Of a DNA stretch of 64,000 bases, positions 23,606 through 60,468 are shown piece by piece. The notes under the pieces were generated by a model that was not told the origin of the DNA, made no database searches, and saw nothing but the letters and a program-made list of their open reading frames with translations. The stretch comes from Terriglobia bacterium (lineage in GTDB: Bacteria; Acidobacteriota; Terriglobia; Acidiferrales; UBA7541), in the NCBI GenBank assembly GCA_020073485.1, contig JAIQFB010000004.1, positions 62,001 to 126,000 of the forward strand, in the 5' to 3' direction. How positions within the stretch are numbered: position 1 is the stretch's first letter; every line of letters begins with the position of its first letter. The position numbers were made by a program, and so were the translations under genes.

Positions 23606-25387
23606 TCAGTGATGATGACGTGCAGACATGGGCTGTGACAATAAATAGACATTAAGGAAGGTAAAAGCCGCCGCGATCATCATCATCGGAAAGACTGCCC
23701 TCAGAGCCAGCTTCCTTTCCCGATAGTTCCTCAATGAAAGTTTCCAGCCTATATACAGGGAGAGCAGATAGAACCCCGACAGGATAGACATCTGGAGGTA
23801 ATAAATGAAAACGTCGGTTGCAAGCGGCCCAATCCGCCAATTGGCTGTGCCGACATGGAAAACAGTCAAATCGTTAATCGTGCGCTGGATGACTGGGACA
23901 ATCCCCGGCCCCTCTTTAAGTAGGTGCAAAACGTTGTGGGCCAGATGCAGCGCCAATCCGATGGGGACGAACATGTAGCCAAAGATTGTAAAGGTCTCTT
24001 TATAGCCGAATCTGGGCGAATGAACCATCCCACGGCTCAGTTGTGATGCAAGCAACACCAACAACGGGGCGACCAGGAAGCTGGACACAAAATAGACGAC
24101 GGTAAATGTCAAATTCTCGATCATGGCGTGGTTTTTAATCCCCACCAGAGAAAAAGGGATGAAGTGCGACATCCGGTCCATCCATGCATGCCAGGGCTCG
24201 ACCATGTGGCCGGTAACCATGAAGACGACTCCGACAAGCAAAATAGCCAGAAATGCTTCGTCGAAACGCCGGTGGGAGCTTGACCAAAGATCTTCCGCGA
24301 ACGGTCTTAACGTGAAGGAAATGTTGTCTTTCGGGCATGTCTTTACGCATTCGCCGCACAGATTGCAGTAATTATTGCGGTCCATGGCCGAGGGAAACTC
24401 GAACATCATACATCCCTCTCCTTTTTCGTTGCCGCGGTAACAATCCTTAGTCAAGCAGGTTGAACAAGCCGCGCGATTCTTGGCGCGAAGCTCAAGCGGC
24501 GAAACCATGGAGTAAAGTCCAATCAGTCCTCCGATCGGACATAAATGGCGGCAGAACGTTGCCCGCTGGAAAAAGAGTCCCGTGAGAATCGCAACGGTGG
24601 AGATTACGACCACAAGCCACGCCGTGCGGCTCGGGCTGCCAACGATTCCAAAATATTCATCCGCCCAGGTCAGAATCACGAAAGCCAGAGTGGCCAGCCA
24701 GACATTTCGCAGGGCGGGAGGAAATCGCCTGATCGGTTTGAATATGCGGGAGGTCCAGACAGTCAGGGCGCCAAAGGGACACATGGTGCACCAAAGCCTC
24801 CCAACCAATACGAAAGCGAAGATGATAGCCGCCCACCAAATCGTCCACGTCATCTTGGTTGCGAAATTCCTTCCTCCGTCCTGCGTGTCAAAAAAACCGA
24901 GATAGATAACCAGGGCAAAGATTAGAAGATTCGGAACCTGCAATATCAGCTGAAAGTATCTCCACTTTACGAGGGCTTTTACCCCGCGGAACTGCAATAG
25001 ATCGAAACGGCCCTGATTCCGAGGACGAGGAGATCCGCGAGTGAAGAGAAGGGCGACGGTGAGTCCCGTTAGAAAAACCATCGCGCCAAGCGTCCACCAT
25101 GGATGGAACATGGGAACTGGCTGGATGGGAACCTCTGGTTCGCCGGCATAGCGGGGAACTAATTCCATACCGCAATCGGGGGCTATTCCCGCCCTGTCTA
25201 ATTTATAAGCGGGGTGCATGGGGTCGTACCAGTAGAGAACCTGGTGTTCTGCCAGCGGAGGCGGTTCTTTGATCGGGGACGCCTTCGCGACCTGTCCATG
25301 CCCGGTTGTGGTCGCAGTTTCATGTGCGAAAGCTGAAGGCAAGACCAATAAAACCAGCGCTAGCGCAAAAACAATGAGTCTATTCAT
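23606..25387 (-). CDS. NosR/NapH-like polyferredoxin membrane protein with CusB-type metal-binding motif
   Basis: A 593-residue protein. Residues 1-22 are a signal; 51-80 carry YWYDPMHP and CGMELVPRYAGE, the heavy-metal-binding motif of CusB-type copper/silver adaptors. A transmembrane helix (about 97-113) and further helices follow, with the C-x3-CP motifs of the NosR/NapH/RdxA family (LWCTMCPFGAL, FCRHLCPIGGL). Two cytoplasmic-type iron-sulfur motifs come next (CSTCLTKDCYRGNEKGEGC and CNLCGECVKTCP), then 4-5 C-terminal helices and a His-rich end (ARHHH). The family moves electrons from quinol across the membrane. The motif fusion hints at a copper-linked redox role. The start at 25385-25387 places the signal first; a CRP-type palindrome lies 82 bp upstream. 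Confidence 0.82.
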   Translation of the reverse strand: MNRLIVFALALVLLVLPSAFAHETATTTGHGQVAKASPIKEPPPLAEHQVLYWYDPMHPAYKLDRAGIAPDCGMELVPRYAGEPEVPIQPVPMFHPWWTLGAMVFLTGLTVALLFTRGSPRPRNQGRFDLLQFRGVKALVKWRYFQLILQVPNLLIFALVIYLGFFDTQDGGRNFATKMTWTIWWAAIIFAFVLVGRLWCTMCPFGALTVWTSRIFKPIRRFPPALRNVWLATLAFVILTWADEYFGIVGSPSRTAWLVVVISTVAILTGLFFQRATFCRHLCPIGGLIGLYSMVSPLELRAKNRAACSTCLTKDCYRGNEKGEGCMMFEFPSAMDRNNYCNLCGECVKTCPKDNISFTLRPFAEDLWSSSHRRFDEAFLAILLVGVVFMVTGHMVEPWHAWMDRMSHFIPFSLVGIKNHAMIENLTFTVVYFVSSFLVAPLLVLLASQLSRGMVHSPRFGYKETFTIFGYMFVPIGLALHLAHNVLHLLKEGPGIVPVIQRTINDLTVFHVGTANWRIGPLATDVFIYYLQMSILSGFYLLSLYIGWKLSLRNYRERKLALRAVFPMMMIAAAFTFLNVYLLSQPMSARHHH

Positions 25388-25461: not shown

Positions 25462-25477
25462 TGTGACGAAGGTCACC
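25462..25477. promoter_or_regulatory. CRP/FNR-type palindrome upstream of NosR-like gene
   Basis: TGTGACGAAGGTCACC, centred 82 bp upstream of the NosR-like start (minus strand) and about 283 bp upstream of the Cys-rich gene at 25753 (plus strand). The core GTGACGNAGRTCAC is shared with 31325 and 36734. Confidence 0.65.
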
Positions 25478-25752: not shown

Positions 25753-26127
25753 ATGGGCTTCGACAAAGAGGAAATGATTGAGCAGTTGAAGTTTGAAATC
25801 GAAATGATTGAGAAGGGAGGATACGACGCTTCGGTGCGGGAACCTCGCAAAAATCCGGAAATCTTCCGCGATTCGATTACCTGCCTTAACGTAGGTCTTG
25901 AGGAAAAGGAGCATCCTTGCTCGGATTGCTTTTTGAGCCAGTTCGCACCCCCCGAGCTGCGCAACTCCACAGGTGACATCTGCCATAAGATTCCGCTCAA
26001 CGAAAAGGGCGACACGGTCGAATCGCTCAAGGCTGAAGACGATCAGCAGAAGCTCCAAACCACTGTTTTGGGCTGGCTGAAAAGAACTGTCGCAAAACTG
26101 GAAGAAGAAGTCGCGCGCAAAGAGTAG
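25753..26127 (+). CDS. Hypothetical small cysteine protein
   Basis: A 124-residue soluble protein of unknown family, acidic and helical at both ends (MGFDKEEMIEQLKFEIEMIE and LKRTVAKLEEEVARKE). The centre has four cysteines: C44, C56, C59 and C77 followed by His (TCLNVG, HPCSDCF, DICHKI). This is a possible iron-sulfur or zinc site. The ATG follows AAGGAG at suitable spacing; an upstream in-frame ATG at 25702 lacks one. It is divergent from the NosR-like gene with a CRP-type palindrome between them, so it may belong to the same respiratory response. A longer open frame on the other strand is a shadow. Confidence 0.65.
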   Translation: MGFDKEEMIEQLKFEIEMIEKGGYDASVREPRKNPEIFRDSITCLNVGLEEKEHPCSDCFLSQFAPPELRNSTGDICHKIPLNEKGDTVESLKAEDDQQKLQTTVLGWLKRTVAKLEEEVARKE

Positions 26128-35552: not shown

Positions 35553-36269
35553 CTATAGGTTCGCGTAGCCTTCCAAGGCCGCACGATTGGGGATCATCAG
35601 TGTCGATCCCTGTATGGCAACCAGGTGTCGTACCTTGAAATCGCTCAAAATGCGCGTAACCGTCTCACGAGTGGTGCCGATGAATTCCGCAATTTCTTCG
35701 TGCGTCAGAGGCAGCTTGATTCGCGTGCCCTCTTTCGTTTGTTGGACTCCCTCTGACCAGGTGAGTAAAAGTCGAGCGAGTTTTCCCTGCGCGGAAGCTG
35801 AGAGTCCGATCGTGTGCAATTGTTCGCATGCGCCTCGATACTGGGAACTCATCTGCTTCACTGCGTTTTGAGAGGCTTCGGGATATTTTGCAAGGAAATG
35901 CAGGAAATCTTCCCGGCGCACAAACGCGACCTGGCAGGGATGGATCGTTTCGGCCGTCACTTCATATGGTAGACCTGCCATGGCGGCAATCAGTCCGAGC
36001 AATTCTCCTGTCCTGGCAATTCTCAGGATGAGGGTCTTGCCCTCGGGTGAGCTGATGGAGAGTTTTACTTCGCCTTCGCACAGGACGTAGACCCCCCGCG
36101 CATCCTGTTTCTCGACGAACAGCAAGGCGCCCTTTGGATAGGTGGCCGTGGACTTGATTGCGTCAAATTCCTTTACCGCCAAGGGCGGCAACTCGCAAAA
36201 GAATCCTGAACCCTTCATCTTGCAAGTCTTGCAGCCATCGTTCAGCTCCAATCCGTATGGACCTTTCAT
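35553..36269 (-). CDS. FNR/CRP-family transcription regulator with FNR cysteines and CRP-type recognition helix
   Basis: A 238-residue regulator. N-terminal CKTCKMKGSGFFC gives C13, C16 and C25; C112 (IHPCQVAF) aligns with FNR Cys122, so all four [4Fe-4S] ligands of FNR appear present, with wider spacing (C-x2-C-x8-C). Residues 28-125 form the cyclic-nucleotide-binding-like beta barrel, then the dimer helix (near 130-160) and a winged helix: LPLTHEEIAEFIGTTRETVTRILSDF, whose RETVTR (201-206) equals the CRP recognition helix, predicting TGTGA half-sites rather than FNR's TTGAT. ATG 36267-36269 overlaps the stop of the STAS gene upstream (ATGA) and has GAGGAGG. Likely oxygen/NO-sensing activator of the nearby respiratory genes. 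Confidence 0.88.
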   Translation of the reverse strand: MKGPYGLELNDGCKTCKMKGSGFFCELPPLAVKEFDAIKSTATYPKGALLFVEKQDARGVYVLCEGEVKLSISSPEGKTLILRIARTGELLGLIAAMAGLPYEVTAETIHPCQVAFVRREDFLHFLAKYPEASQNAVKQMSSQYRGACEQLHTIGLSASAQGKLARLLLTWSEGVQQTKEGTRIKLPLTHEEIAEFIGTTRETVTRILSDFKVRHLVAIQGSTLMIPNRAALEGYANL

Positions 36270-36589
36270 GATTGCCTCCTCAGCATGGCGTTTAGATCGG
36301 ACGTTCTTCGAATATGTTGTTGAGCCTGTTCCGCGAAATATTTCGTGAGTGGCGTATCCGCAATGAATTCGGCGCACGACGCCTCGTGTATTTCAGCCAG
36401 TAAATTACAGCCGGTCCCGTCGACATGCGTAACGCCGCGAAGGTCCACCAGGAGCTTTTTTTGTCCCAGGGAAGGCGCCAACTCCCGCCACGCTTGCTGC
36501 AACGCTGAGACGGTGGACTTTGCGATGTTCCCTTCAATCTTCATGGTTATGCCTTCAGCGTCTGCCTGTTGAATCGTCACTCTTATCAT
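36266..36589 (-). CDS. STAS-domain protein coupled to the FNR-like regulator
   Basis: A 107-residue STAS domain: VTIQQADAEGITMKIEGNI, LLVDLRGVTHVDGTGCNLLAEIHEA and a C-terminal helix rich in Gln and Arg. The phosphorylation-site region reads VDGTG, with Thr in place of Ser. Its stop codon overlaps the start of the FNR-like regulator by 4 bp, which ties the two translationally. A CRP-type palindrome (36734) and a hairpin (36654) lie upstream. Possible roles are an anti-anti-sigma factor or a direct partner of the regulator. Confidence 0.8.
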   Translation of the reverse strand: MIRVTIQQADAEGITMKIEGNIAKSTVSALQQAWRELAPSLGQKKLLVDLRGVTHVDGTGCNLLAEIHEASCAEFIADTPLTKYFAEQAQQHIRRTSDLNAMLRRQS

Positions 36590-52014: not shown

Positions 52015-52030
52015 TGTGACTTTGATCACA
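52015..52030. promoter_or_regulatory. Perfect CRP/FNR-type palindrome between moeA and the CMD gene
   Basis: TGTGACTTTGATCACA: TGTGA-N6-TCACA, fully symmetric at both half-sites. It is centred 40 bp from the moeA start (minus strand) and about 140 bp from the CMD-family start at 52163 (plus strand), so it may serve both. Confidence 0.75.
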
Positions 52031-52162
52031 GCGAAACCTTGCATGTGATTCTTTTTGCGTATCCTGGCAGTCACAGCGTGTTTCTTAGATTCTGACGTCT
52101 TGTCCTGCTCAAAGCTCGTAGTATGCTTGGCCCGCAGAAGAAAACATCAGGGGAGGTGTTAT

Positions 52163-52480
52163 ATGAAGTCCGATCTTCCACAATGGTCCCGCCGATTCGA
52201 GAAGACTTACGCAAAGGTATGGAAATCTTTTCAGGATCTTGGCGAAGTATGTCATGGGTGGGGGCCTCTGGATGCCCATACAAGACGTCTAGTAAAAGTC
52301 GGAATCGCGGCGGGAGCGGGTTCGGAGGGCGCATTGCATTCGGCCGTTAGAAACGCTTTGGCGGAGGGCGTGTCGAAAGATGAAATCCGACATGCCATCT
52401 TGCTGTCCATCACTACAATCGGATTTCCAAAAGCACAGGCTGCTCTCAGTTGGGCTGAAGATATTCTCACCAAGAAATAG
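52163..52480 (+). CDS. Carboxymuconolactone decarboxylase/AhpD-like family protein
   Basis: A 105-residue cytoplasmic protein of the CMD family: PLDAHTRRLVKVGIAAGAGSEGALHSAVRNALAEGVSKDEIRHAILLSITTIGFPKAQAALSWAEDIL. The AhpD CxxC is absent (GSEGAL), so the peroxidase mechanism is unlikely. Genes of this type often sit beside anaerobic respiration genes. ATG 52163 follows GGGGAGG; an upstream ATG at 52055 lacks a site. Divergent from moeA and just before the nar operon, with the CRP-type palindrome upstream. Confidence 0.8.
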   Translation: MKSDLPQWSRRFEKTYAKVWKSFQDLGEVCHGWGPLDAHTRRLVKVGIAAGAGSEGALHSAVRNALAEGVSKDEIRHAILLSITTIGFPKAQAALSWAEDILTKK

Positions 52481-52623
52481 GGACCCTTCTCTTGCGGTGT
52501 TCCCCTATCGAGCATATCAGATCGGCTTGGGGATCGTGTCTCCCATAGCCCACCGTCGACCCTCCTCTGGATGCTCCATTTTGAATTTTCCCGCTGCGCT
52601 AAGTGACAATCTACACCAAAAAA

Positions 52624-52639
52624 CGTGACCCGAATCACA
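52624..52639. promoter_or_regulatory. CRP/FNR-type palindrome upstream of the nar operon
   Basis: CGTGACCCGAATCACA, centred 86 bp upstream of the Rrf2 start at 52718. Placement suits activation of the whole Rrf2-cytochrome-nar transcript. Confidence 0.7.
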
Positions 52640-52717
52640 TGAAAGGGTGATGCCGGTTACAGCGTCGGCCGAACCAATTGTGGAATAAAGGGTCCTGAAT
52701 TCAAGAAAGGGCCTTGC

Positions 52718-53212
52718 ATGATCCTGCAACGTTCCTCCGAACTCGCCATCCGGGCTGCTTTATTCCTGGCCCAGCAGGCCCCCGGGAAGCTTTCCCCTGT
52801 TCACGAAATCGCGGCGCACACAGGAGTTTCCGAGGCCTACCTCGCAAAGATATTGCAGCGACTGGCCGGCACCGGCTTGGTGCGTTCATTCCGCGGCCCG
52901 GGAAAGGGCATGGAACTTGGCCGGGCACCCTCTTCCATCACTTTGGACTCTATCGTGTGCGCAATTGAGGGCGCCATGAGGGACGACGAATGCGTGCTCG
53001 GCATTGGAATTTGTTCGAAGGAAACTCCCTGCACCCTGCACACGGAATGGGTTCCGATTCGTACCGCGATCCTTGCGCTTCTGCGAAACACCACTCTCGC
53101 CAATTTGGTTGAGATCGCCCAAGGCCATTCCAATAAGTCACTCGAGTCGATGCTCGGCGAAAGGAATTCTTCCGCCCAAGCGCATGTCAGCCGGGGAAGG
53201 AGGCACCCGTGA
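52718..53212 (+). CDS. Rrf2-family regulator with three cysteines
   Basis: A 164-residue Rrf2 protein: winged helix SSELAIRAALFLAQQ, VHEIAAHTGVSEAYLAKILQRLAGTGLVRSFRGPGKGMELGR, and the cluster-binding loop C92-x6-C99-x5-C105 (ECVLGIGICSKETPC), similar to NsrR and IscR. Such regulators sense nitric oxide or Fe-S status and usually repress. It is the first gene of the nar operon; its stop overlaps the start of the cytochrome c gene by 4 bp, so it is probably co-translated and autoregulated. The C-terminal tail after 135 is Ser/Arg-rich and variable. Confidence 0.88.
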   Translation: MILQRSSELAIRAALFLAQQAPGKLSPVHEIAAHTGVSEAYLAKILQRLAGTGLVRSFRGPGKGMELGRAPSSITLDSIVCAIEGAMRDDECVLGIGICSKETPCTLHTEWVPIRTAILALLRNTTLANLVEIAQGHSNKSLESMLGERNSSAQAHVSRGRRHP

Positions 53213-54051
53213 GCCCCCAGCGACGTCTATTGATTGCCGTTTTGCTCGCGCTTGCGCTGCCGCGTTTCGCGGCGGCACAAGTTGCCAATGACTTCTTTCA
53301 ACAAAACTGTTCGACTTGCCACACGATCGGCGGTGGCCGGTTAGTCGGCCCGGACCTGAAGGATGCCGTGCAGCAAAAAGATCGCGAATGGTTAGAACAT
53401 TTTATACAAGATCCGGAAGCGGTCTTGAACAGCGGCGATCCCTATGCCTTGCAACTGAAAAAAGATGCAAACGGAATCGTCATGCCCAAGATGCCGGGCG
53501 TGACGCCGCAAATGGCGGAAGAATTGCTGAACATGATTGAAGTGCAATCGAAGCTCCCGAAATCGAGTCTCGCGGGGGTGACCGTCAGCGAGCAGCCCTT
53601 CACAGCCAACGATGTTTTGACCGGCAGGGAGATCTTTCTGGGCAAACACAAACTGAGTCAAGGAGGGCCTCCCTGTGTCTCCTGCCATACGCTCGGGTCG
53701 ATCGGTGGTCTTGGAGGCGGGCGCCTCGGCCCGGATTTGACTCTGGTTTATAAGCGGCTTGGCGGCCGGAAATCACTCGGTGCATGGCTTACCGCTCCTG
53801 CCACACCGACCATGCAGTCGGTTTTCCGCAATCATTCGCTGCAGTCCGCGGAAATCCTGCCGCTCCTGGCTGTTTTTGAAGATTCGTCTCAGCAATCACA
53901 ACCCGCGAACGCAAACAGTCAAATTAAATTTTCCTTAGCGGGTATTGCGGGCGCTCTGCTCGGCTTGGCTTTCATGGGTTGGGTCTGGCGAGGCCGGATC
54001 CGGACCGTAAGGCGAGCTTTGGTTAGCGGCGCGCAGCGAGGTGCGGCATGA
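53209..54051 (+). CDS. NarC-like membrane-anchored diheme cytochrome c
   Basis: A 280-residue exported cytochrome. Signal peptide (about 1-23), heme site CSTCH (34-38) with MPKMPG probably providing Met ligand, second heme site CVSCH (156-160), and a C-terminal transmembrane helix (about 238-258) ending in basic residues. The gene starts with GTG (ribosome site GGAAGGAGG upstream) and overlaps both neighbours by 4 bp. A cytochrome c directly preceding narG is known from Thermus (NarC), where it feeds or anchors the nitrate reductase. Confidence 0.85.
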
Positions 54052-57000
54052 AATCGAAAAAGGGCATGAGCTGGATCAAGGACGAAAGCGATCCAAAGCT
54101 GCGCGGGTGGGAAGAGTTTTACCGCAACCGCTGGCAGCACGACAAAATCGTGCGTAGCACACACGGAGTGAACTGCACCGGAGGATGCACGTGGCAGATC
54201 TACGTGAAAGATGGAATCGTCACCTGGGAAATGCAGGGACTGGACTACCCCTTGTTGGAAGCTGGTTTACCTCCTTACGAGCCACGCGGGTGTCAGCGAG
54301 GTATTTCCTATTCCTGGTATCTCTACAGCCCGCTGCGCGTGAAGTATCCGTACATGCGTGGCGCGCTTCTGGATTTGTGGAAACAAGCGCGCACCAAGTT
54401 CGAAGATCCGGTTCAGGCCTGGCAATCGCTGGTTGAAAATCCCGAGGCCCGGCAGCGGTGGCAACGCGCTCGCGGCAAAGGCGGATTCCGGCGGGCCGAT
54501 TGGGGCACGGTGCGGGAACTGATCGCGGCCAGCTGCGTCTACACGGTTCGCAAACACGGGCCGGATCGCGTGGCAGGTTTTTCGCCGATTCCGGCGATGT
54601 CCATGATCAGCTACGCCGCTGGAGCTCGCTTCCTGCAATTGATGGGTGGCGTCTCCCTCTCGTTCTACGACTGGTATTGCGATCTCCCACCCGCATCACC
54701 GGAGACCTGGGGAGAGCAGACCGACGTCAACGAGTCGGCCGATTGGTACAACGCAAAACTTCTCGCGGTAATGGGTTCCAACCTCAACATGACGCGTACG
54801 CCGGACTGCCATTTCGCCGCCGAAGCCCGGCACAACGGCAGCAAGATGTGGGTTTTCTCACCCGATTTTAGCCAGGTAGCAAAATATGCCGACGAATGGG
54901 TGCGAGTGAATGCCGGGCAGGACGGCGCCTGGTGGATGGCTGTCAATCACGTTCTGCTCAAGGAATTTCACCACGATAAACAGGTTCCTTACTTCGTCGA
55001 CTACACCAAGAAATATACGGACGCGCCGTACCTGGTCGAATTACAAGAGATCGAAGGCGGGTACAAACCCGGACAATTACTGCGGGCCAACCGGCTGGCG
55101 AATTACAAAAGTGTCGAAAACGGCGACTGGAAATTTTTGATGTGGGATGCGGCCGATGGCCGGCCGAAGATGCCCATGGGCAGCTCCGGATTCCGCTGGG
55201 GAAAAGAGAAAGGCAAATGGAATCTTGAACTCAAGGACGGCATCGACGGTTCCGAAATCGATCCCACACTCAGTTTCTTGACCCAAAATGACGGAGTAGT
55301 GCAGGCACGTTTCGACGATTTTGCCGAGGGGCGGGCGTTGCTGCGCGGCGTTCCGGTCCGCAAAGTGAAGACGGCGGATGGAGGAATCGCCATTGTTACG
55401 ACCGCCTACGACCTGCTGATGGCGCAGTACGGCGTGGACCGCGGCCTGCCGGGCCAGTACCCGAAAGATTACGACGATGCTGATGCTCCTTATACGCCGG
55501 CGTGGTCGGAAAAATTCACCGGCATGGGCCGAGACGTCGTGCTTCGCTTTGCGCGCGAATGGGGTAACACGGCTTTGCTTACCAAAGGAAAATGCACGGT
55601 CATCATCGGGGCTGGAATCAATCACTGGTATCACGGCAACCTGATGTATCGCGCCGCGATCCACGCGATGATGTTTTGCGGCTGCGTTGGCGTCAATGGC
55701 GGAGGGCTGGCGCACTATGTCGGACAGGAAAAGTTGGCTCCGATGGAGTCCTGGTCGTCGATTGCGTTCGGGCGCGACTGGCTGCCGGCGTCCCGGCTGC
55801 AAAATGCGCCGAGCTGGCACTACGTCCATACCGATCAGTGGCGCTACGAAAAACAATTCACGGACTACCACACGGTTCCTTCCGATCAAGGGCCTGGGTC
55901 TCTGGCCTCTGGCCACACTGTGGACGTGCAGGCGCGGGCCGTGCGCAACGGCTGGCTGCCGTTTTATCCGCAGTTCAATCGCAACCCTCTCGACCTGGTC
56001 CGCGAAGCCGAGCAGGCCGGCGCGAAGACCCAGGAGGAAGTCAGCGCATACACGGTAGAAAAACTGAAAAGCGGCGAGATGAAATTCTCGGTCGAAGATC
56101 CGGATGCCCCGGAAAACTGGCCTCGTGTCTGGTTTATCTGGCGGGGCAACGCACTTATGGCCAGCGCCAAGGGGCACGAATATTTCCTCAAGCACTATCT
56201 CGGCACGCATACCAACGCCATCGCCACCGATATCGCCAAGGATGAGGTGAAAGATGTGGTCTGGCGCGATCCGGCGCCGCAGGGAAAGATGGACCTCGTC
56301 GTGGACTTGAACTTCCGGATGGATACTTCGGCGCTTTACTCCGACATTGTCCTGCCCGCCGCTACCTGGTACGAAAAGGCCGACTTGAACTCCACCGACA
56401 TGCACAGTTTCATTCACCCGCTCTCCGCGGCGGTGCCGTCTTGCTGGGAATCGAAAAGCGACTGGCAGATTTTCGGCGAGCTTGCAAAGGAATTTTCCAA
56501 ATTGGCCGCGCCATATTTCCCCAAGCCGGTTTGGGACCTGGTGGCCACGCCCCTGGCGCACGATACGGCCGCCGAGATTGCCCAGCCGGACATGCGCGAT
56601 TGGAAGCGCGGTGAAGTGGAAGCGATCCCCGGTAAGACGATGCCCGGATTGAAACTTGTCGCGCGGGATTACGCCAATCTCTACAACCAATATATTTCCT
56701 TCGGACCGCAAGTCCGCACGCTGGGATTGGGCGCGCACGGGACGCACTACGCCTGTGCGGATGTATATGACGAGGCCGTGAAGAATCAGCCCGTTTCGGC
56801 GTGGGGCGGCGAGCGATATCCTTCGCTGGAAGACGACGAGGATGTTTGCAATCTCATTCTGCAGTTCGCGACGGTAACCAATGGCGAGCTGGCCTATCGG
56901 TCTTATCGAGACATGGAAGAGAAGGTCGGCTTGCCGCTGGCACAGCTAGCGGAACGCAATCGCGGCGTGCGAGTCAGTTACAAAGGGCTGCAGGCTCGGC

Positions 57001-57692
57001 CGAAGAGGCTGATCAACAGCCCGATGTGGTCGGGGCTGACCGAGAACGGCCGCGCCTACGCGCCTTTCACCTACAACATCGAATGCCTCGTGCCCTGGCG
57101 CACGCTGACCGGGCGGCAGCATTTCTATCTCGATCATCTCGGCTATATTCAATTCGGCGAACACCTGCCTACGTACAAACCCAAACCGCTGCCGGTGGAA
57201 TATGCCGACCTGCGGTTGAGCCGCGAAGTCGGTCCGACGCTGACGCTCAATTACCTCACGCCACACGGGAAGTGGCACATCCACTCAACGTATGGAGACA
57301 ACCATCGGATGACAACATTGTCGCGCGGCATCGAGCCGTTGTGGATGAACGACAAGGATGCCACCGACATAGAGATCAATGACAACGACTGGGTCGAAGT
57401 GCACAACGACAACGGTGTTGTCGTGACGCGGGCCGTGGTCAGCGCGCGTATTCCCCGCGGCATTTGCATCCAGTATCACTCTCCGGAACGGACGCTGTCG
57501 GTTCCGACCTCGCCCTTGCGGAACAACCGCCGCGCCGGCGGGCACAACAGCCTGACGCGCGTGCGCCTGAAGCCCAATCTCATGGTCGGTGGTTACGGCC
57601 AGTTTACATTCCATTTCAACTACTGGGGTCCGGTCGGTTGCAACCGGGATACGCACGTCTTTGTGCGAAAGCTGCCCGAACTCAAATGGTAA
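54048..57692 (+). CDS. narG: Respiratory nitrate reductase alpha subunit NarG
   Basis: A 1214-residue molybdoenzyme, close to the usual 1200-1250. The FS0 cluster ligands H39, C43, C47, C82 ([11 protein letters not shown] and EPRGC) are those of NarG, and [20 protein letters not shown] gives the Mo-ligand Asp (D212 by spacing to E. coli D222). Bis-MGD binding blocks continue through [15 protein letters not shown] and the C-terminal domain to [12 protein letters not shown]. There is no twin-arginine signal, so the active site faces the cytoplasm as in NarG. Start ATG overlaps the cytochrome stop (ATGA). NarH follows 11 bp downstream. Confidence 0.97.
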
Positions 57693-57703
57693 GGAGCGCC
57701 GCC

Positions 57704-59194
57704 ATGAATGTCCGATCGCAAGTTTCGATGGTCTTTCATCTCGACAAATGCATCGGCTGCCATACGTGCAGCATTGCGTGCAAGAACCTTTGGACCGACC
57801 GGCGCGGCACCGAATACATGTGGTGGAACAACGTCGAGACCAAGCCCGGCACGGGTTTCCCCACGAAGTGGGAGGATCAGGAGAAATACCACGGCGGCTG
57901 GGAGGTGAAGAACGGGAAGCTGCAACTGAAATCCACCAGCAAGGCGCAGACTATTTTTAACATCTACCACAATCCCAGCATGCCCACGATGGACGACTAC
58001 TACGAGCCTTGGACCTACGATTATCAGCACCTGTTCAATGCGCCCGAAGGCACTGATCAGCCTACCGCTCGTCCGATCTCGATGGTCACCGGTGAACTCA
58101 TCCAGATCGAGGCTGGCCCCAATTGGGATGACGACCTCGGCGGTTCGCCCGTCTATGCGGAAAACGATCCCAACCTGAAGGGCCTGACGCCGGATCAGCG
58201 CGCGCAACTTGTCGCCGTCGAGCGGCTCGTCTTCTTTTACTTTCCACGCATCTGCAACCATTGCCTGAATCCGGCATGCGTGGCGTCGTGTCCCTCGGGC
58301 GCGCTCTACAAGCGGGGAGAGGACGGCATCGTGCTTGTGGACCAGAAACGCTGCCGTGGCTGGCGGATGTGTGTTGCGGCCTGCCCGTACAAGAAGATGT
58401 TCTACAACTGGAATACTGGAAAATCCGAAAAGTGCATCCTCTGTTACCCGCGCCTGGAGACCGGCCAGGCGCCCGCGTGCTTCCATTCCTGCGTGGGCCG
58501 GATCCGGTACCTGGGCGTGATGCTTTACGACGCTTCGAAAATTGAAGAAATGGCTTCGCTGCCGGATGAAGACTTGGTGGAAGCGCAGCGTTCCCTGGTG
58601 CTGGACCCGAATGATCCGGAAGTCGTCGCCGCGGCGCGGAAAAGCGGAATTCATGAATCGGTCATCGAGTCGGCGCAGCGCTCGCCAGTGTACCAGTTCG
58701 TGAAGGTCTGGAAGATTGCTCTGCCGCCGCACATCGAATACCGCACGATGCCGATGCTGTTTTATGTCCCTCCGATGTCTCCCGTGATGTCCAATGTAGC
58801 GGACGGGACCATTCACCATGTCTCGGACAATCTGTTCCACGACATTGACGAATCCCGCGTGCCGCTCAAGTTTCTCGCGAATCTGTTTGGCGCCGGCCAT
58901 GAAGAGTTCGTGCGTTACGCGCTTCGAAAGCAGAAGGCCGTGCGATGGTATCGCCGCGCGGTGACCGTAGGAGACGTCGAAATGGCGACGGCGGAACGAA
59001 TGCTGCGCGAAGCGGATTGCTCTCCGGAACAAGCCGAGGCGATTTATCGCCTGACTTCCCTTTGCACATTCGACGATCGTTTCGTTATTCCGCCCATGCA
59101 TCGCGAGGAAGCGATTCAGATGATGGAAGACCCGCTTGAGCACAAGCAGGGCGTCGGCTTTGGATTCCTATCCGGGCCGCGCCGAGGAATGTGA
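57704..59194 (+). CDS. narH: Respiratory nitrate reductase beta subunit NarH
   Basis: A 496-residue electron-transfer subunit with four iron-sulfur clusters: CIGCHTCSIACKN (C16, C19, C22, C26), CNHCLNPACVASCP, the CRGWRMCVAACP motif in which Trp replaces one Cys (the [3Fe-4S] cluster), and CILCYPRLETGQAPACFHSC. It passes electrons from NarI heme to NarG. Start ATG has AAGGAG; the upstream open frame within narG is not used. The last base of its TGA is the first base of the narJ ATG. Confidence 0.97.
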   Translation: MNVRSQVSMVFHLDKCIGCHTCSIACKNLWTDRRGTEYMWWNNVETKPGTGFPTKWEDQEKYHGGWEVKNGKLQLKSTSKAQTIFNIYHNPSMPTMDDYYEPWTYDYQHLFNAPEGTDQPTARPISMVTGELIQIEAGPNWDDDLGGSPVYAENDPNLKGLTPDQRAQLVAVERLVFFYFPRICNHCLNPACVASCPSGALYKRGEDGIVLVDQKRCRGWRMCVAACPYKKMFYNWNTGKSEKCILCYPRLETGQAPACFHSCVGRIRYLGVMLYDASKIEEMASLPDEDLVEAQRSLVLDPNDPEVVAAARKSGIHESVIESAQRSPVYQFVKVWKIALPPHIEYRTMPMLFYVPPMSPVMSNVADGTIHHVSDNLFHDIDESRVPLKFLANLFGAGHEEFVRYALRKQKAVRWYRRAVTVGDVEMATAERMLREADCSPEQAEAIYRLTSLCTFDDRFVIPPMHREEAIQMMEDPLEHKQGVGFGFLSGPRRGM

Positions 59195-59757
59195 TGGACG
59201 CGAAATCGATTTGCGAGCGATTTGCAAAGCTTTTCGAATATCCGGGCGAAGACTATCGCGCGAATGCCGAAGAGTGCCTGACAGCTCTGCAAGGCGAGCA
59301 CTCTACGTCGTCAGAGTCGTTCGAAGAATTTTGTGCGCCGATTCGGAATCTAAGCACGGATGATCTGCGGGAACTCTTCACGCGAACATTTGATCTGAAT
59401 CCGATATGCACGCTCGAAATAGGCTGGCAACTATACGGGGAAGATTATCAGCGGGGCGAGTTCCTGGTGAAGATGCGAGAACAATTGCGTGAGTTTGATC
59501 TCCGGGAGTCCGGCGAGCTTCCCGACCATCTGTCTCACGCACTCGTCTTATTGGCGCATTTGGAGCCGGACGAAGCGGCCGCATTCGCGGGAGGGTTTCT
59601 GCTCCCGGCACTCGACAAAATGCGTACGAACTGGCGGGAAGACCGCAATGCCTTCGCCCCCTTGCTCGAATCGGCTTTCTCGCGGCTCCGCAGCGAATAT
59701 CCGTACGACCCGGCAAAAATGCCAATCCGGAAGCCGGAACTGCCGATTCTGCAGTGA
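59194..59757 (+). CDS. narJ: Nitrate reductase assembly chaperone NarJ
   Basis: A 187-residue (from ATG 59194) helical TorD/NarJ-type chaperone: ERFAKLFEYPGEDYR, LFTRTFDLNPICTLEIGWQLYGEDYQRGEFLVKMRE (the conserved YGEDYxRG), LPDHLSHALVLLAHL, FLLPALDKMRTNW. It binds NarG before cofactor insertion. A GTG one codon earlier (59191) is possible but inside the narH stop. The stop at 59755-59757 directly precedes narI. Confidence 0.93.
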   Translation: MDAKSICERFAKLFEYPGEDYRANAEECLTALQGEHSTSSESFEEFCAPIRNLSTDDLRELFTRTFDLNPICTLEIGWQLYGEDYQRGEFLVKMREQLREFDLRESGELPDHLSHALVLLAHLEPDEAAAFAGGFLLPALDKMRTNWREDRNAFAPLLESAFSRLRSEYPYDPAKMPIRKPELPILQ

Positions 59758-59769
59758 ATGGAGGCGAAG

Positions 59770-60468
59770 ATGACGAGTGCATTCCCATTCCACAATCAGC
59801 TTTGTTTTATTGTCTTTCCTTACGTCGCGGTGCTGACTTTCTTGCTCGGCACAATTTTGCGCTATCGAAAGGATCCGTTCACCTATTCGAGTTTGTCATC
59901 CCAATTCCTGGAGAATCGCAAGCACTTCTGGGGACTCGTCCCATTCCATTACGGGATCGTGGCCGTACTGGTCGGGCACATCGTTGCGTTTCTCTTGCCG
60001 CGTCAGATCCTCGAATGGGATAGCCAACCGCTGAGACTTTACATCTTGGAAATATCTGCATTGATTTTCGGTCTGCTCACCGTTGTCGGTTTGGTGGGAG
60101 CAATTGCGCGGCGCTTGACGGTTTCCAAAGTGCGCGTGGTTACGAATGGATTTGACTGGTTTGTGCTTTCCCTCCTGCTCGTGCAAACGATCAGTGGCGT
60201 TTACGTGGCGATTTTTCATCCCTGGGGATCGGCGTGGTTTGCCGCGGCCATTTCGCCGTACCTTTGGTCGCTCGCTCGATTTAATCCCGATCTCGGCTAT
60301 GTGTCCATGATGCCCTTGGGTGTGCAGCTGCACATCCTGATGGCTTTCGTCATCATCTTCGTCACCCCCTTCACCCGGCTCGTGCATGTTCTGGTTGCTC
60401 CGAATCCCTATCTTTGGCGGCGGCGGCAGGTGGTTCGCTGGTATCGCTCGCAAAAAGAAGCTTCATGA
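59770..60468 (+). CDS. narI: Respiratory nitrate reductase gamma subunit NarI
   Basis: A 232-residue membrane cytochrome b with five transmembrane helices. Heme b ligands match E. coli spacing: H60 and H70 (FHYGIVAVLVGHI) and a second pair 18 apart (LQLHILMAF, RLVHVL). It oxidises quinol and anchors NarGH. The ATG at 59770 follows GGAGG by 5 nt; an in-frame ATG at 59758 right after the narJ stop adds four residues. The stop overlaps the start of the porin gene (ATGA). Confidence 0.93.
   Translation: MTSAFPFHNQLCFIVFPYVAVLTFLLGTILRYRKDPFTYSSLSSQFLENRKHFWGLVPFHYGIVAVLVGHIVAFLLPRQILEWDSQPLRLYILEISALIFGLLTVVGLVGAIARRLTVSKVRVVTNGFDWFVLSLLLVQTISGVYVAIFHPWGSAWFAAAISPYLWSLARFNPDLGYVSMMPLGVQLHILMAFVIIFVTPFTRLVHVLVAPNPYLWRRRQVVRWYRSQKEAS

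Follow-up and report, generated by a model that had tools for sequence, protein, structure and literature searches.

A copper-export-type motif on a membrane polyferredoxin

Why would a membrane-bound iron-sulfur protein carry, at its N-terminus, the copper-binding motif of an efflux adaptor? This question is raised by a gene in a 64-kb stretch of DNA, hereafter called the window, from a soil-type Acidobacteriota bacterium whose genome measures 5.05 Mb and is 97% complete. As assembled, the gene is an unbroken ORF that begins with an ATG at 25387 and encodes 593 aa, in the order signal peptide, heavy metal binding domain (HMBD; residues 52-78), and nine predicted membrane helices, with twelve conserved cysteines of the NapH/NosR-like polyferredoxin type; the ORF may stem from a chimeric assembly. 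The initial annotation had placed a copper motif (residues 51-80) and a polyferredoxin in one ORF, which we confirmed, with YWYDPMHP at residues 52-59 and CGMELVPRY at 72-80. We found no description of a polyferredoxin paired with a heavy metal binding domain in the open-access literature, and the HMBD-polyferredoxin is the only polyferredoxin of its kind that we found in its own genome. Feature coordinates are collected in Table 1.

Residues 52-78 matched PF19335 (HMBD, Pfam; E 3.1e-9) with 37.1 bits, above the cut-off of 23.6. E. coli CusB in the PDB (3h94/3ne5) matched residues 12-85 with an E value of 1.9e-10, which indicates that YWYDPMHP/CGMELVPRY is no chance motif. The NCBIfam CusB model aligned with residues 12-83 only (E 1.2e-10) and gave 40.4 bits versus a cut-off of 390, so that the protein does not qualify as a full-length adaptor. 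The Cu(I) ligands of CusB are M21, M36, and M38 (PMC6235853). M57, C72, and M74 align with these three residues at equal spacing, with a cysteine in place of the middle methionine, which keeps all three CusB ligand positions as Met/Cys/Met and marks M57/C72/M74 as candidate copper ligands. The earlier reading of the motif as a CusB-type Cu(I)/Ag(I) site therefore held, and the site would belong to the part of an electron-transferring polyferredoxin that is predicted to face the periplasm.

Residues ~46-83 are up to 78% identical to adaptor-like ORFs of Acidobacteriota. Scanning peptide patterns of the HMBD-polyferredoxin across genomes of 84,980 species yielded 50 relatives, of which 28 (loci L035-L062) have a near-identical YWxDPMHP...CGM in an ORF without a polyferredoxin. 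Most of these ORFs are complete and of RND-adaptor size, and from size and motif they are probably CusB-type adaptors. The sole polyferredoxin among the 50 relatives (L034) is without an HMBD. The HMBD-polyferredoxin shares with the RND efflux adaptors CusB and SilB the HMBD motif at the N-terminus and its three positions for copper ligands, but unlike them it has no adaptor domains, and its remainder is a polyferredoxin. In its own genome, the only other HMBD lies in a P-type ATPase. A copper locus of that genome (L132:8080-11827) comprises a Met-rich protein, an HMBD P-type ATPase, and a CsoR-like gene, which counts in favor of the copper role proposed below (the names CsoR-like, feoB-like, cytochrome oxidase subunit, and hydrogenase maturation, here and below, come from reading the sequences, without a Pfam or NCBIfam call).

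The polyferredoxin core and its predicted topology

The core matched Fer4_5 (E 1.5e-11), and its best curated match was NapH of NCBIfam (E 5.6e-14), with 51.9 bits versus a cut-off of 234. The cysteines begin with a CxxCP pair (residues 200-204), followed by a CxxxCP pair (279-284) and two four-cysteine sets; the CxxxCP and the two Fe-S sets of the initial annotation stood, with the correction that CxxxCP is the second pair and CxxCP the first. In an alignment of 36 members, C200, C203, C279, C283, C316, C326, C341, C344, C347, and C351 are invariant, C308 is conserved at ≥90%, and C311 is frequent. Fer4 (Pfam) matched the four-cysteine sets with an E value of 0.0037, under its curated cut-off, and a profile search of the PDB returned short ferredoxin-type matches and nothing else.

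Judged by hydropathy and positive charge only, the HMBD would lie outside, followed by nine further membrane segments, and the C-terminus would be outside as well, whereas the Fe-S cysteines would be inside. One predicted face of the membrane thus bears the HMBD together with the conserved Met/His residues described below, and the opposite face bears the Fe-S cysteines. Two AlphaFold2 models are of low confidence (mean pLDDT 45.6 and 37.6); their helices broadly match the predicted segments, and both are too poor to bring the proposed ligands together, which counts against the copper role.

At E values up to 1, there was no FMN-binding family among the Pfam matches and no CcoG family among the NCBIfam matches. 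The HMBD-polyferredoxin resembles NapH/MauN and NosR polyferredoxins in its CxxCP/CxxxCP membrane ferredoxin layout, but its NapH score is far under the cut-off, no FMN-binding domain was found in it, and E. coli NapH is far from it in the tree described below, which places it beside CtaG-fused/YtkA-linked proteins. We rejected a NosR/NapH identity, the NosR type having been the earlier assignment, on these scores, domain content, and tree position.

Table 1. Positions of the features within the window
Feature	Position	Strand	Basis or remark
HMBD-polyferredoxin gene	23606..25387	-	continuous ORF; HMBD, Fer4_5, and NapH-like matches
Predicted signal peptide, residues 1-22	25322..25387	-	hydrophobic segment 4-22, end ...SAFAH
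HMBD/CusB-type motif, residues 52-80; candidate ligands M57 (H58), C72, M74	25148..25234	-	PF19335; alignment with CusB 3h94/3ne5
CTMCP, residues 200-204, predicted cytoplasmic end of membrane helix	24776..24790	-	C200, C203, P204 invariant in 36 homologues
CRHLCP, residues 279-284	24536..24553	-	C279, C283 invariant
Two four-cysteine sets, residues 308-326 and 341-352, candidate [4Fe-4S], predicted cytoplasmic	24332..24466	-	cysteine conservation
GHMVEPWH, residues 393-400, predicted periplasmic	24188..24211	-	M395 kept across wider clade
HLAHNVLHLLKEG, residues 481-493, predicted periplasmic	23909..23947	-	H484, H488 kept across wider clade
C-terminal QPMSARHHH, residues 585-593, predicted periplasmic	23609..23635	-	M587 kept across wider clade
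CRP/FNR-type palindrome TGTGACGAAGGTCACC	25462..25477	.	about 75 bp before start codon
CRP-type palindromes of the window	19434, 23497, 25462, 27205, 31325, 52015 (perfect), 52624		
CRP/FNR-family regulator, N-terminal Cys motif (CKTC...FFC)	35556..36377	-	Crp/Fnr-family models, all below cut-offs
Possibly co-regulated nitrate respiration genes and palindromes	52015..60465	+	palindromes 52015-52030 (moeA side), 52624-52639

Orthologues and recurrent fusion to copper-related domains

Full-protein genome-wide searches covered sampled Acidobacteriota, and pattern scanning was added once for genome contigs and once for plasmids; a search for viral relatives found none. Across 396 genomes from the phylum, orthologues at 52-54% identity occur in four besides the window's own (G148, G095, G226, and G131), and all four belong to the class of G095, a different class from that of the window. 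The order of the window is represented by 94 further genomes, and none of these encodes an orthologue; eight genomes there gave matches of 30-33% at most, the window's own genome excluded. The GC content of the gene is 52%, versus 56.5% for the window, which together with the patchy distribution suggests horizontal acquisition.

The four close orthologues (labeled 'Hisrich' in the tree) have no HMBD, which indicates that the domain is not essential to the core and counts against the copper role. The initial annotation had named a regular lack of the motif among homologues as a refutation of its reading; the motif itself is indeed missing from these proteins, yet their N-terminal regions are longer and contain histidines, with a His-rich stretch in G131 (HDHQAHDHGEA), short clusters in G148 (HDHHAMHEGG) and G095, and fewer in G226. 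Hhalign probabilities for YtkA-like N-domains in the orthologues were only 10 and 46, too low to establish such a nature. The G131 orthologue is divergent from a feoB-like gene. A flavodoxin-like gene is divergent from three orthologues (L092:2862-3440, L093:10692-11330, and L094:4893-5609), and the first of these genes matched Flavodoxin_4 with an E value of 3.6e-4, below the cut-off; this neighbor may point to another redox role and is a point against the copper role.

In a tree of 42 rows, with E. coli NapH and no NosR sequence among them, the window protein groups within the clade of its orthologues (100/99, starred). The sister group consists of CtaG-fused and YtkA-adjacent polyferredoxins, with support of 93/94 that narrowly misses the starred level, and CuA-fused polyferredoxins form a separate starred clade; a topology test rejected a grouping of the CuA-fused rows and the window protein. 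A relative in G003 (33% identity) has a different HMBD, and a single origin of the fusion in the two proteins was likewise rejected (AU p 1.6e-60). The HMBD has been fused at least twice independently. Pfam identified CtaG in three other relatives, COX2 in four, and cupredoxin in five. Taken together, these fusions reveal one electron-transfer core recurrently joined to varied copper-related domains (HMBD twice, CtaG, and CuA-like).

M395, H484, H488, and M587 are present throughout the wider clade (12/12 members), and G003 has them too. The CtaG-fused/YtkA-adjacent polyferredoxins of Acidobacteriota in the sister clade share M395, H484, H488, and the QPM C-terminus with the window protein, but they have a CtaG domain, or no fused copper domain, where it has the HMBD. 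The CuA-fused polyferredoxins, one of which is near nosZ, are alike in core family and in having a periplasmic copper-type N-domain, but in their clade H484, H488, and M587 (QPM) are absent, and a methionine occurs at 395 in 2/14. At L099:7173-13264, a CuA-type polyferredoxin lies near a NosZ with nos_propeller.

A possible role in copper redox at the periplasmic face

We tentatively propose, at a little under an even chance and from sequence comparison, that the HMBD-polyferredoxin is an inner-membrane Fe-S protein that would exchange electrons with copper at the periplasmic face, with a CcoG-like function and expression at low oxygen. Cytoplasmic-side [4Fe-4S] clusters would pass electrons through the membrane part to periplasmic copper, or take them from it. 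The copper would be held by the N-terminal HMBD (Met57/Cys72/Met74), and Met395, His484, His488, and Met587 would form a second predicted copper site. The reaction could be a CcoG-like reduction of Cu(II) to Cu(I), or the reverse, and the job would most likely be to hold copper in the periplasm at the redox state that its export, or its delivery to copper enzymes, requires, under the control of a putative FNR/CRP-type low-oxygen regulator. Copper is the presumed substrate, and the metal may be iron or silver instead.

We favor this reading because the HMBD keeps the three CusB positions as M/C/M and because a conserved Met/His face is predicted opposite the Fe-S cysteines, and further because of the His clusters of the orthologues, the CtaG/YtkA sister clade, one member of which (G394) adjoins genes reading as cytochrome oxidase subunits, the occurrence of related polyferredoxins by P-type ATPases and in FTR1/Fe-transport operons, the feoB-like neighbor of one orthologue, and the precedent of CcoG. 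In a review, CcoG is described as a polyferredoxin that acts as a cupric reductase, has Fe-S clusters and Cu sites, and raises copper sensitivity when lost (PMC7558416). CcoG/FixG of cbb3 oxidase assembly is likewise a membrane polyferredoxin tied to copper redox and copper-enzyme assembly (PMC7558416), but the HMBD-polyferredoxin does not match the CcoG model and has an N-terminal HMBD, which is not among the CcoG features cited here. Against the proposal, no copper gene lies beside the HMBD-polyferredoxin gene, which stands alone among unrelated genes in the window. A 124-aa protein with CSDC and CH residues and without a Pfam family is encoded divergently from it at 25754-26127.

The initial annotation had suggested electron delivery to a copper site or copper-linked N-oxide respiration. 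The first part gained from the further conserved Met/His residues at the predicted periplasmic face. N2O respiration is unsupported because the nosZ propeller was not found in the genome: nos_propeller gave no match there, and control genomes gave none either, with the profile recognizing the Acidobacteriota NosZ of G120 (E 1.6e-21). A natural copper-export-type site on an electron carrier, combined with conserved Met/His residues, makes electron exchange between polyferredoxin and copper testable by mutagenesis.

Upstream palindromes and probable low-oxygen expression

The CRP-type site previously noted upstream was found again as TGTGACGAAGGTCACC, which has one mismatch to TGTGA-N6-TCACA. 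The window contains seven palindromes with at most one mismatch versus 1.25 expected, a count reached in 0/100 shuffles. Across the genome, TGTGACN4GTCAC, the strict form, occurs 11 times at 10 distinct places, versus 2 times for the reversed control, and some of the genome-wide sites precede a CRP/FNR-family regulator, hydrogenase-maturation-like genes, and a molybdopterin oxidoreductase. Within the window, sites precede a moeA-like gene and a group at 52718-60465 that comprises an Rrf2 regulator, a cytochrome c-like gene, narG, narH, a gene in the narJ position, and narI, with narG, narH, and narI scoring over the NCBIfam cut-offs. These nitrate respiration genes are possibly co-regulated, and the shared palindrome type lends weak support to a broader link with anaerobic respiration. 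Expression of the HMBD-polyferredoxin probably occurs at low oxygen via an FNR/CRP-type regulator, with both the binding regulator and the oxygen response predicted; the CRP/FNR-family regulator of the window is a candidate reader of the palindrome. No such palindrome was seen before the orthologues.

Alternative functions

The most probable alternative, in our view still unlikely, is that the protein serves as a heme-copper oxidase assembly factor, which would supply reduced copper to CuA or CuB, as CtaG/YtkA-linked polyferredoxins may and CcoG for the cbb3 oxidase. The composition of the sister clade and the oxidase-like neighbors of its G394 member are consistent with such a factor, as are the three strong COX1 genes in the genome (two weak COX1 matches are NnrS-like proteins), in which no CtaG match was found. 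However, no oxidase gene adjoins the HMBD-polyferredoxin gene, the palindrome suggests low-oxygen use, and orthologues are absent throughout the 94 other genomes of the order, a comparison based on orthologue presence.

Less likely again, the protein could be an oxygen-independent copper redox enzyme. It would oxidize or reduce copper in the periplasm against the respiratory chain while the cell respires anaerobically on nitrate and multicopper oxidases, which depend on oxygen, are out of action; copper would dock at the HMBD. We regard it as quite improbable that the HMBD merely serves for docking or buffering, or was carried along in domain shuffling, and that the core has an unrelated redox task in the membrane, perhaps with flavodoxin. 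Such a role would fit the four HMBD-free orthologues and the flavodoxin-like gene beside three of them, but it is opposed by the independent HMBD fusion in G003 and by related clades in which this position is taken by copper-related domains of the CtaG or CuA type.

An iron-linked carrier, which would take electrons from periplasmic Fe(II) oxidation or reduce Fe(III) for uptake, is more improbable still. Related polyferredoxins sit in Fe2+-transport protein/cupredoxin/FTR1 operons, and the feoB-like gene beside the G131 orthologue points the same way; however, the FTR1-operon polyferredoxins are distant in the tree, no iron gene adjoins the HMBD-polyferredoxin gene in the window, and the Met/Cys at the HMBD ligand positions are soft-metal ligands. 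The least probable reading is the earlier one of a NosR/NapH-type electron donor for N-oxide respiration, which accords with NapH as the best curated match, with CuA-fused relatives near nosZ (G120) and molybdoenzyme-like genes (G351), and with a palindrome of this type before the narG genes, but is opposed by the NapH score, the missing NosR-type FMN-binding domain (Pfam), the lack of a nos_propeller match in the genome, and the rejected grouping with the CuA-fused clade.

At a separate locus (L133:8804-11847), an NnrS-like gene, a RIC iron-sulfur repair gene, and a CRP-family regulator form a likely nitric oxide response cluster.
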